This document shows positions 3,510-5,681 of a DNA stretch of 64,000 bases, piece by piece. The DNA lies in assembly GCF_013373365.1 (NCBI RefSeq), contig NZ_CP035925.1, positions 3,596,001 through 3,660,000 of the forward strand. Direction: 5' to 3'. Below the pieces are notes generated by a model. That model was not told the DNA's origin, ran no database searches, and worked only from the letters and a program-made list of their open reading frames with translations. Both the position numbers and the translations under genes were made by a program. This DNA is from Lentibacillus sp. CBA3610. Lineage in GTDB: Bacteria; Bacillota; Bacilli; Bacillales; Amphibacillaceae. Every line of letters starts with the position of its first letter. Position 1 is the first letter of the stretch.

Positions 3510-4422
3510 TCGTATTCTCCCCAATCAAATCAAAGAATTTATCCTCAAGTGATGATTTTGACATGGTCACCTGGTATACCTTTATATCGTGACTGACGAA
3601 TGACTGGATAATGTTTGGTATCATGTCGCGTTCAGCACGAATGGTTACCATTTCCTTGGCAGTTGTTGCATTGAGGTCAAAATCCTCTTTTAAAACCTCA
3701 ATTGCCTGCTGTGTTGGTGTTACGTCCATTTGAATTTCAACGGCAGTTGTTTGTTCGGTTGCTGCGTTGACATCCTGGGTGGCAATAATTTCACCATTTT
3801 TGATCAGACCGATCCGATCACACATTTGCTCGATTTCAGACAGTAAATGACTCGAAATGATAACAGCAACATTCTCTTCCTCAGCTAATTGTCGTATGTA
3901 TTGACGAATTTCGCGAATACCGGCCGGATCCAACCCATTAGTAGGCTCGTCCAAGATAAGCACGGATGGTTTATGCAGGAGTGCCTGGGCGATTCCGAGC
4001 CGCTGCCGCATCCCTAAAGAATATTTTCCGGCCTTTTCGTTAATCGGTTTTTCCAATCCTACAATTTTAATGACTTCCTCAATACGCTCTTGGGTGACGC
4101 CAGGCATCATCCGGGCGTAGTGTCTTAAATTCTGCCTTCCCGTCATGAAGGGGTACATTTCCGGATTTTCAACAATCGCCCCGACTTCCCGGATGGCATC
4201 TTTATACTCTGATTTAATGCTGTTTCCCAGTATCCGAACATCACCGTCTGATAAACCCATCAATCCAACCATCATGCGAATGGTAGTCGTTTTACCGGCA
4301 CCATTGGGCCCGATAAATCCGAATACTTCTCCCTTATGGATTTCAAATGATAATCCCTTAATAATTTCTTTGCTGCCAATTGTCTTTTTGACATCGATTA
4401 ATTCCATGGCTGTTTCAGTCAT
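3502..4422 (-). CDS. ABC transporter ATP-binding protein
   Basis: About 306 residues with all nucleotide-binding motifs in order: Walker A GPNGAGKTT, Q-loop region, signature YSLGMRQRLGIAQAL, Walker B VLILDEPTNGLDP and the H-loop (ISSHLLSEIEQ). The C-terminal ~90 residues are the extra domain seen in DrrA/BcrA-like ATPases. ATG 4422 (MTETAMEL) with a GGGGGAA ribosome site is preferred to the upstream in-frame ATG 4485. It is the first gene of the exporter operon and overlaps the permease start. It energises export through the partner permease at the cytoplasmic face of the membrane. Confidence 0.92.
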   Translation of the reverse strand: MTETAMELIDVKKTIGSKEIIKGLSFEIHKGEVFGFIGPNGAGKTTTIRMMVGLMGLSDGDVRILGNSIKSEYKDAIREVGAIVENPEMYPFMTGRQNLRHYARMMPGVTQERIEEVIKIVGLEKPINEKAGKYSLGMRQRLGIAQALLHKPSVLILDEPTNGLDPAGIREIRQYIRQLAEEENVAVIISSHLLSEIEQMCDRIGLIKNGEIIATQDVNAATEQTTAVEIQMDVTPTQQAIEVLKEDFDLNATTAKEMVTIRAERDMIPNIIQSFVSHDIKVYQVTMSKSSLEDKFFDLIGENTIE

Positions 4423-4523
4423 GTTATATTCCCCCAATTTATGTAACTGTTTTGTAGTACGAAAAAAATCATGGAAAAGTTTCATTGATTTCAGGTACTA
4501 TTTTAATTCCTACTATTTTAATT

Positions 4524-4589
4524 TAGCTAGTAACATAAGATTTGATTGAAAAATAGCTAAAAATATGTACAATATAAGTAAATTAGCTA
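4524..4589 (+). promoter_or_regulatory. Promoter with three TAGCTA palindromes at exact 30-bp spacing
   Basis: A sigma-A promoter is visible: TTGAAA (4546-4551), 16-bp spacer, TG then TACAAT (4568-4573). The palindrome TAGCTA occurs at 4524, 4554 and 4584, 30 bp apart each time, so copies lie upstream of, within and downstream of the promoter. The -10 also overlaps TGTACA (4566-4571), the core reported for YefM operators. I infer autorepression by the Phd-like domain of the next gene. Promoter elements and spacing are seen directly; the operator role is inference. Confidence 0.6.
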
Positions 4590-4609
4590 ACAAGGAGATG
4601 TGTCGAAAA

Positions 4610-5329
4610 ATGAGAGTGTCTTCAACCAAAGCACAAAATAATTTCGGAAAATACTTGAAATTCGTGGAAGCAGGTGAGGAAGTCATTGTAACGAAAAGTG
4701 GAAAAGATGCTGCCAAAATCCTGCCCTGTCATGATGCAGCCGCTGTTAAAGAAGAACAATCAGACTATCAATCGTCGAGTAGTTGGGTGAGTTATGAAGA
4801 ATTTCTGGAACTAACGGAGGAATCGGAACAACGATTTGAATTAATTGACGGTGTCATCTACAACCTTGCTTCCCCTTCTTACAAGCACCAGCATGCGGTT
4901 GGCGAACTCTTCGGTGCATTTTATAACTGGTTTAAAGGGAAAAAATGTGTGCCGCTGACATCCCCGTTTGATGTGACGTTCTTTAAGGAGGAAAATAACA
5001 TCTGTGTGGTCCAGCCGGATATTGTGGTCATCTGTGACAAGGACAATCTGGACGAGAAAGGTAAATATAAAGGGACGCCAACGCTGGTGGTCGAAGTGTT
5101 ATCACCCTCCACGAGAAGTAAAGATATGTTGAAGAAACTCGAGTTATACAAACAATGTGGTGTCAAAGCATACTGGATTGTCGACCCAATCAATGAACAT
5201 ATTTTGATTTACGTGCTGGAGGACAATGACATTGTAAACAGCAAAACCTATTCAAAAAATGCTCACGATGCGGTTCACTCCGAAGTATTTGAAGGATTGG
5301 CAGCAGACTTGCAGGATGTCTTTGCTTGA
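4610..5329 (+). CDS. Fusion of Phd/YefM-type antitoxin domain and Uma2-type (DUF820) nuclease domain
   Basis: A 239-residue protein in two parts. Residues 1-45 look like a Phd/YefM DNA-binding domain (VSSTKAQNNFGKYLKFV, then GEEVIVTKSGKDAAKILP). Residues 60-235 match the Uma2 family, a PD-(D/E)XK-like fold: FELIDG (Glu77), QPDIVV (Asp137), VVEVLSPST (Glu162), a helix with LysLys at 175-176, and YWIVDP. ATG 4610 has AAGGAG 12 bases upstream; an earlier in-frame ATG lies within the promoter. Uma2 proteins are common in cyanobacteria and some Bacillaceae and have no agreed function; a nuclease role is predicted from fold. The fusion would place a DNA-binding autoregulator on the same chain as a nuclease. 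It is monocistronic and ends with a short hairpin. Confidence 0.75.
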   Translation: MRVSSTKAQNNFGKYLKFVEAGEEVIVTKSGKDAAKILPCHDAAAVKEEQSDYQSSSSWVSYEEFLELTEESEQRFELIDGVIYNLASPSYKHQHAVGELFGAFYNWFKGKKCVPLTSPFDVTFFKEENNICVVQPDIVVICDKDNLDEKGKYKGTPTLVVEVLSPSTRSKDMLKKLELYKQCGVKAYWIVDPINEHILIYVLEDNDIVNSKTYSKNAHDAVHSEVFEGLAADLQDVFA

Positions 5330-5383
5330 TTCGTTGATTAGAAGAACGTGGCTTTCGCAGCTGCCTTCAACCCCACTGTATTG

Positions 5384-5420
5384 AAAAAGCCGCATTTGGC
5401 ATCGGAAACATGCGGCTTTG
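5384..5420 (+). terminator. Hairpin after the Phd-Uma2 gene
   Basis: A perfect 10-bp stem (AAAGCCGCAT at 5386-5395 with 5410-5419) around a 14-base loop lies 57 bases after the stop codon. It lacks a long T-run, so termination is likely but not certain. Confidence 0.45.
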
Positions 5421-5522
5421 TAGCGTTAAACTGTAATGGCTCTATTCAGTGCTTTCTATCATTATTTCATGAAAATATACTGCTCTGTCTAAGACTATCC
5501 TGTGCACCGTAAATCCGAAAAC

Positions 5523-5681
5523 CTATCTTTTTAATTCGGGATTCTCACGTTTTGCTTCTCTGACGTTTGGTCCGCGGTATCCGCCCGCAATGTCCGCCTG
5601 CTTAAAACCTTTGGCAAAATGGACTTCCTGGGCATCTGTCAGTTGCTTGTCCTTTGTCGGCTGATATTGTGCTTTTCGCAT
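5523..5681 (-). CDS. Small basic protein (52 aa), possibly YfhE-like
   Basis: On the minus strand ATG 5681 is preceded by AAAGGA with nine-base spacing. The 52-residue product is hydrophilic and rich in Lys, Arg and Gln. A central block DAQEVHFAKGFKQADIAGGY resembles, from memory, the short motifs of the uncharacterised YfhE-like family of Bacillaceae. No signal peptide or membrane segment is present. It is isolated, between the Uma2 gene and the thiolase gene, which face the other way. The good ribosome site and non-random composition support it as a gene; the family name is tentative. Confidence 0.55.
   Translation of the reverse strand: MRKAQYQPTKDKQLTDAQEVHFAKGFKQADIAGGYRGPNVREAKRENPELKR

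Follow-up and report, generated by a model that had tools for sequence, protein, structure and literature searches.

The Uma2 proteins (DUF820/COG4636; PF05685; structures 1wdj, 3ot2, 6okh and 9y1l) are putative endonucleases that are numerous, often present in multiple copies per genome, and without an assigned job. In excerpts of the literature they are described as selfish elements with an active-site set of D, E, a shifted K and a conserved H (PMC551604), and Makarova and co-workers consider Uma2 a probable solo toxin that is seldom found together with known antitoxins (PMC2701414, in excerpt). The Phd/YefM antitoxins (PF02604; P1 Phd, YefM, Axe) have an N-terminal DNA-binding domain and short repeated palindromes over their own promoter; for YefM, R10 and R31 are given as essential for DNA binding in the available part of PMC4803016. 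The same excerpt covers EzeT, a single-chain toxin-antitoxin in which a regulatory N-terminal and an effector-like C-terminal part lie in one polypeptide. The fusion proteins described here share the fold, the PD-EXX-K residues and the multi-copy genomes of Uma2, the N-terminal domain and promoter palindromes of Phd/YefM, and the one-chain layout of EzeT.

The window, i.e. the whole stretch of 64,000 nucleotides of Lentibacillus sp. CBA3610 that was analysed, contains a gene with the following features.

4524–4529, no strand: putative operator site 1, TAGCTA, 5′ of the −35 element, at about −56 from the predicted transcription start
4546–4573, + strand: predicted sigma-70 type promoter TTGAAA-16-TACAAT (consensus match only)
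4554–4559, no strand: putative operator site 2, TAGCTA, between −35 and −10
4584–4589, no strand: putative operator site 3, TAGCTA, at about +4, just 5′ of the ribosome-binding site
4592–4597, + strand: ribosome-binding site AAGGAG (direct reading)
4610–5329, + strand: Phd-Uma2 fusion gene, 239 aa plus stop, ATG at 4610 (ORF translation and profiles)
4610–4753, + strand: Phd/YefM-type DNA-binding head, residues 1–48 (PF02604, TIGR01552; folds of P1 Phd and VapB46)
4754–4780, + strand: linker, residues 49–57 (pLDDT below 50 at 46–54; conserved Glu48 and Tyr53 at or within it)
4781–5326, + strand: Uma2 PD-(D/E)XK domain, residues 58–239 (PF05685; folds of 6okh, 9y1l, 1wdj and 3ot2; E77, H93, D137, E162, K176)
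5386–5419, + strand: inverted repeat ending in TTT, 3′ of the gene, a possible terminator (direct reading; its 14-nt loop is beyond the loop limit of the hairpin scan, which therefore did not list it)

The sequence-only reading had proposed a 239-residue fusion of a Phd/YefM-like N-terminus to a Uma2-like domain, and profile searches of 4610–5329 matched both domains. PF02604 matched residues 3–48 (E 5.5e-9; 36.1 bits against a curated cut-off of 29.8) and TIGR01552 residues 3–43 (E 1.1e-9; 37.4 bits against 20.8), so the profile match on which the proposed N-terminus hinged is present. The PF02604 match spans profile positions 4–50 of 74 and ends at residue 48, covering the DNA-binding part of Phd (about 48 residues). 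That the nuclease domain took the place of a toxin partner, as the first reading proposed, is a candidate reading. PF05685 matched residues 63–234 above its curated cut-off (E 3.6e-33). The PADLOC family PDC-S03, a code which we take to denote a candidate single-gene defence family, matched residues 57–238 only (E 4.6e-59).

The structure predicted from a 60-sequence alignment (mean pLDDT 88, pTM 0.72) has a modelled strand-helix-helix-strand-strand head, a low-confidence link at 46–54 and a nuclease-like domain; the relative packing of head and nuclease in it is tentative. The modelled Uma2 part resembled 6okh_B most clearly (Z 24.0, rmsd 1.6, 171 residues aligned), and 1wdj, 9y1l and 3ot2 were also retrieved. 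The modelled head matched VapB46 (6jqy_B: Z 6.8, rmsd 1.5, 42 residues) and P1 Phd (4zlx_A: Z 5.9, rmsd 3.5, 44 residues), and Z scores of 5–7 are middling for so short a domain. A profile built from 20 heads had no hit among PDB sequences at E 0.01; P1 Phd was recovered in the sequence search at E 0.03.

We consider it likely, at a rough probability of 0.82, that the gene encodes a solitary self-repressing nuclease, in which a dimer of the Phd head would bind TAGCTA over its own promoter and hold the Uma2 nuclease low. The head, probably a dimer like Phd and YefM, would bind TAGCTA repeated over the promoter (three times here), and the bound head would block RNA polymerase and shut the promoter. 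The potentially harmful nuclease would then stay scarce, and all of it would come with the repressor attached. This reading is built on the domains, the promoter palindromes, the joint change of head and site in a sister clade, the active-site residues, the lack of an operon partner and the absence of the gene from this place in relatives; from these we infer that the protein itself binds and represses the promoter, that it cleaves DNA, and that it acts as a solo toxin or a defence nuclease whose level has to be kept down.

TAGCTA stands exactly at 4524, 4554 and 4584, as first read. The promoter is the single promoter-like match in 4400–5500 (TTGAAA 4546, TACAAT 4573); shuffled sequences gave a mean of 2.7, so this match alone carries little weight. 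Single TAGCTA hexamers were not enriched in the window either (9 against 6.25 expected; 20 of 100 shuffles reached 9), and the significance of the motif therefore lies in its conservation in homologues rather than in its count in the window. A TTAGCTA pair within 30 bp occurred once in the own genome, at this promoter, but the reversed control pattern gave 4 and 4, so that the pair number is itself no evidence.

Samples of 159 family, 397 order, 398 class and 398 phylum genomes were searched; these samples overlap, and the loci taken are best matches, up to 30 per search. In the 159 family genomes TAGCTA was found upstream in 14 of the 15 fusion genes. Among distinct 150-bp upstreams of the best matches across the phylum, it was present in 59 of 61, with at least two copies in 54 and at least three in 21. 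These 61 upstreams held 134 copies, against an average of 6.5 and a maximum of 14 in 200 dinucleotide shuffles, and when all 64 palindromic hexamers were ranked on them the runner-up was TAATTA (21/61). In named genomes (the 80 best out of 482 relatives, overlapping in part with the genes of the other counts) TAGCTA stood at 78 of 79 usable loci, L152 being left out as it has no upstream. The sole exception is L145, whose match starts only at residue 42. Uma2 matches without a Phd head carried TAGCTA in 1 of 53 cases, as a single copy.

The largest set comprised 191 distinct fusion proteins, which are best matches rather than a census. For the preceding comparison of 61 upstreams with 53 headless matches, a fusion was defined by a match from residue ≤6 to ≥200, which excludes the frame-broken L013, and a headless protein by a match starting at residue ≥28 (53 rows in 52 loci, at least two of which bear another DNA-binding head). 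For the set of 191, genes with less than 60 bp of upstream or fewer than 180 aa were dropped, and identical proteins were merged (242 to 191). In a group of 151 of these fusions, TAGCTA occurred within 180 bp upstream in 147, so the homologous loci have kept the palindromes, while each of nine other palindromic hexamers was found in at most 7 of the 151 upstreams. A scorable promoter was available for 144 of the 147 TAGCTA genes, promoters being best consensus matches of which some are surely misplaced. On this basis the site lay between 10 bp 5′ of −35 and +20 in 139 of 144, a count that stands without a shuffled control. The usual places are −56, −26 and +4 in the window's lineage, and about −1 and +8 in a lineage with 9-bp spacing. 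By conservation and position, the gene would thus share with the Phd/YefM family the trait of a palindromic operator over its own promoter.

Two details of the first reading held for the window and failed as rules. The 30-bp spacing is true here and usual in this lineage, but neighbouring sites in the 61 upstreams were 9 bp apart in 36 cases, 15–18 bp in 11, 20–22 bp in 10, 30–33 bp in 15 and 61–64 bp in 3, which rules out an exact 30-bp spacing in general. TGTACA does overlap the −10 element in the window, but with 3 occurrences in the 151 upstreams of the TAGCTA group it is ruled out as operator and as part of the system.

A wider TAGCTA regulon was also considered and rejected, pair numbers exceeding the reversed control in only 2 of 12 genomes. 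In these 12 genomes (9 with and 3 without a fusion) TTAGCTA pairs within 30 bp were seen at 11 positions distant from any fusion. The only symmetrical one, present on both strands, is in G154; it lies inside a reading frame, presumably of an alanine-dehydrogenase-like protein, and was put down to chance. Those in G152 and G059 were scanned for sites only. Two frame-broken fusions, L013 (G051) and L014 (G153), each still have two TAGCTA upstream, which suggests recent decay.

In a tree of the Uma2 part only, the 191 fusions were set apart, at a support of 0.974, from 50 Uma2 sequences that have no Phd head. Within the fusions, 40 form a clade (support 0.999) and the remaining 151 lie outside it; as rooted here, these 151 are supported as a clade at only 0.286 and could instead represent a grade. 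Both groups are defined on the Uma2 part alone and are blind to head and operator. An earlier grouping had used the absence of TAGCTA in its definition and was partly circular, and its tree took in only 62 of the 151, but the group sizes are equal (151 and 40). The CGTACG-type palindrome was found in none of the 151 upstreams. In the sister clade the picture is reversed, with TAGCTA in 0 of 40 and a CGTACG-type palindrome in 30 of 40 (26/26 in one subclade and 4/14 in the other). The head changes with the site: Asn10 is present in all 147 TAGCTA genes against 3 of the 44 others. It is found in two CGTACG-type genes as well, and four TAGCTA genes whose heads are of the sister-clade-like A5/K9 kind keep it. 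The essential R10 of YefM corresponds, by our assignment, to residue 9 of the fusion head. Retention of TAGCTA at homologues and the joint difference of head and site in the sister clade both favour the one-gene self-regulated module of the first reading, and they argue strongly that the fusion protein would bind and repress its own promoter.

TAGCTA is missing from four members of the group of 151: L219, L302, L233 and the second gene of a tandem pair in G059. In the G059 pair (L011/L039; L039 = G059:C29:241000-244500) the downstream copy has lost TAGCTA and has changed Asn10 to Glu and Gly13 to Glu, and this tandem duplicate is a natural control for the coupling of head and operator. L219 keeps Asn10 without TAGCTA. 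Both the G059 second copy and L219 lie directly behind another Uma2 gene; these two exceptions could be driven from the preceding gene, which would fit a relaxed need for an operator of their own. L302 has Asn10 changed to Lys, and the reading of L233 is out of register where the head begins.

Among 40 paralogue loci from multi-fusion genomes, TAGCTA was present in 22 and absent in 18, and most of these 18 had a second head type, often with TCGTACGA-like palindromes upstream. The comparison of 22 with 18 illustrates that best-match samples favour query-like heads. Four genomes (G1101, G930, G1217 and G958) carry four or five fusions each and have both head and palindrome types, so that a single cell contains copies with different wiring. 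A search for further L071-type copies found none in its family, which holds only 3 genomes. The own genome has 11 Uma2 places (one with an internal stop and one short), of which 2 are Phd fusions. The second of these (G000:C1:2343839-2344570) has one exact TAGCTA and one near copy upstream; as TAGCTA precedes both, the two fusions may repress each other.

The surroundings of the gene point to a solitary unit. The flanking ABC-transporter gene was found in 11 of 12 same-genus genomes, and none of the 10 other same-genus genomes with that gene has a fusion within 1.5 kb of it. In four of them (G045, G049, G052 and G053) nothing but a small reading frame separates the flanking gene from the thiolase gene, and G045 carries its two fusions on another contig. 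In the best comparison (L206 of G050) similarity stops near 4492 and resumes near 5524; the relative has about 260 unrelated bases there, and this is therefore not a clean empty site. We infer a gain of the gene at this place, as opposed to its loss in the relatives. A 52-aa reading frame at 5523–5681 on the − strand, between fusion and thiolase, is conserved in the same genus, and in L211 (G045) the small reading frame beside the thiolase gene runs in the opposite direction.

At 67 named loci the next reading frame of at least 80 aa shared the gene's strand in 31 cases and lay within 60 bp on that strand in 11. The layout found is thus not the two-gene operon of type II toxin-antitoxin systems, a same-strand frame within 60 bp following at 11 of the 67 loci. 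The next frames held 111 Pfam families, none in more than three loci, so there is no constant partner, and with one neighbour considered per locus no PADLOC family occurred in more than two. Stand-alone Phd proteins with the same head were not found in the 159 family genomes, where each of the 15 matches at E ≤0.001 belonged to a fusion gene, frame-broken in two cases. Carriage by phages or plasmids was not seen: among 50,697 phage records and 72,556 plasmid records none had a match over 80% of the query, and no fusion was confirmed in the viral contigs scanned.

Glu77, Asp137 and Glu162 had been singled out from the beginning, and these positions proved invariant in the 60-sequence alignment and in 191/191 fusions, as are H93, Q94, D172 and K176. 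D137, E162 and K176 together with H93 make up the PD-EXX-K residues of the Uma2 family, and the correspondence to the COG4636 set was assigned in this analysis. Invariance of these residues speaks for what is probably a working nuclease. In the linker, Glu48 is present in 183 of 191 and Tyr53 in 181 of 191 fusions, and the E-x4-Y motif occurs in 178 of 191 against 11 of 53 Uma2 rows without a Phd head, which speaks for a contact of some kind by the linker. Two Uma2 genes located 3′ of Phd-Uma2 genes (L096:2964-3722, + strand; L108:286-1035, − strand) have an excisionase-like HTH_17 head, unrelated to the Phd head, and E-x4-Y. The HTH_17 match was just under the cut-off of 27 bits in L096 (26.8 bits, E 6.2e-6) and above it in L108 (29.2 bits, E 1.1e-6). 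With this head and motif joined to Uma2 in both genes, Uma2 seems to have acquired DNA-binding heads at least twice.

The linker is also where a single-chain toxin-antitoxin would have its best evidence. In such a system head and linker would restrain the nuclease in cis, and proteolysis of the head under stress would both derepress the gene and free the nuclease; this is compatible with self-repression, and we regard it as possible but doubtful. The linker is of low confidence in the model (46–54) yet near-invariant at Glu48 and Tyr53, so it may be a binding element. Precedents are the likely solo-toxin status given to Uma2 (PMC2701414, in excerpt) and the cis antitoxin within one chain known for EzeT (PMC4803016, available part). 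The space for a restraining element is small, however. P1 Phd has a toxin-binding tail, whereas here the Phd match ends at residue 48 and the Uma2 match starts at 63, which leaves little room for one. Headless Uma2 genes persist in the same genomes (2 of the 11 places in the own genome are fused), and E-x4-Y occurs as well between Uma2 and another kind of DNA-binding head, which means that the motif is not necessarily tied to an antitoxin function. A broader scheme, which we hold to be rather doubtful, would make the fusions a monophyletic family of one-gene switches, spread through the phylum sample, each a repressor plus a nuclease. Removal of the head, e.g. by proteolysis at the linker, would derepress the gene and free the nuclease, and the operator specificity of the heads would have diverged among paralogues to give parallel switches per cell.

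If the Uma2 part were a sensor or dimer domain without catalysis, the protein would be a plain transcription regulator, and the operator is indeed the clearest conserved feature outside the protein. The full conservation of E77, H93, D137, E162 and K176 (191/191), with D, E, K and H being the family set (PMC551604, in excerpt), makes this improbable. We find it quite improbable that the protein has a restriction-like activity, the Phd head directing the nuclease to TAGCTA on invading DNA. The DNA-binding head, the intact active-site residues and the coverage of the Uma2 part by the PADLOC candidate PDC-S03 (E 4.6e-59) would agree with such targeting, but the host window shows no shortage of TAGCTA (9 against 6.25 expected), the motif sits in the gene's own promoter, and a recurring partner such as a methylase is absent, no Pfam family occurring in more than 3 of the 67 loci. 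TAGCTA might also be the site of another host regulator, given that its operator role is deduced from conservation and position, but it tracks the fusion across the phylum sample (1 of 53 headless Uma2 matches) and differs where the head differs, so this is very improbable. The solitary self-repressing nuclease remains our preferred reading.

The titles and abstract openings of the papers retrieved contained no description of a Phd-Uma2 fusion, its operator or the pairing of head and operator, and a prior mention may exist; domain databases, we assume, may list the Phd-Uma2 architecture. Uma2 and Phd are known families, and the apparently new part is the fusion with its operator and the head-operator pairing. 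The clade would have a built-in repressor and a defined operator and so offers a handle on these proteins: the operator can be read from sequence and the inducing condition found by a reporter. How the Phd fold reads DNA could be worked out on a natural set of head-operator pairs, TAGCTA going with Asn10 and the CGTACG type with other residues.

Compared with Uma2/DUF820/COG4636 proteins, the fusions add an N-terminal Phd head and a conserved operator, and they split off at a support of 0.974. The PADLOC family PDC-S03 matches the Uma2 part, its match (E 4.6e-59) being limited to residues 57–238. Phd/YefM antitoxins have TGTACA cores 12 bp apart (PMC7730913, as excerpted), whereas the fusions have sites of the TAGCTA or CGTACG type; they are without a recurring separate toxin gene, and the nuclease domain follows after a short linker. 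EzeT is built from different domains, and the cis neutralisation reported for it (available part of PMC4803016) is only a candidate in the fusions. Set against these systems, the Phd-Uma2 clade would represent solo effectors supplied with a repressor of their own.
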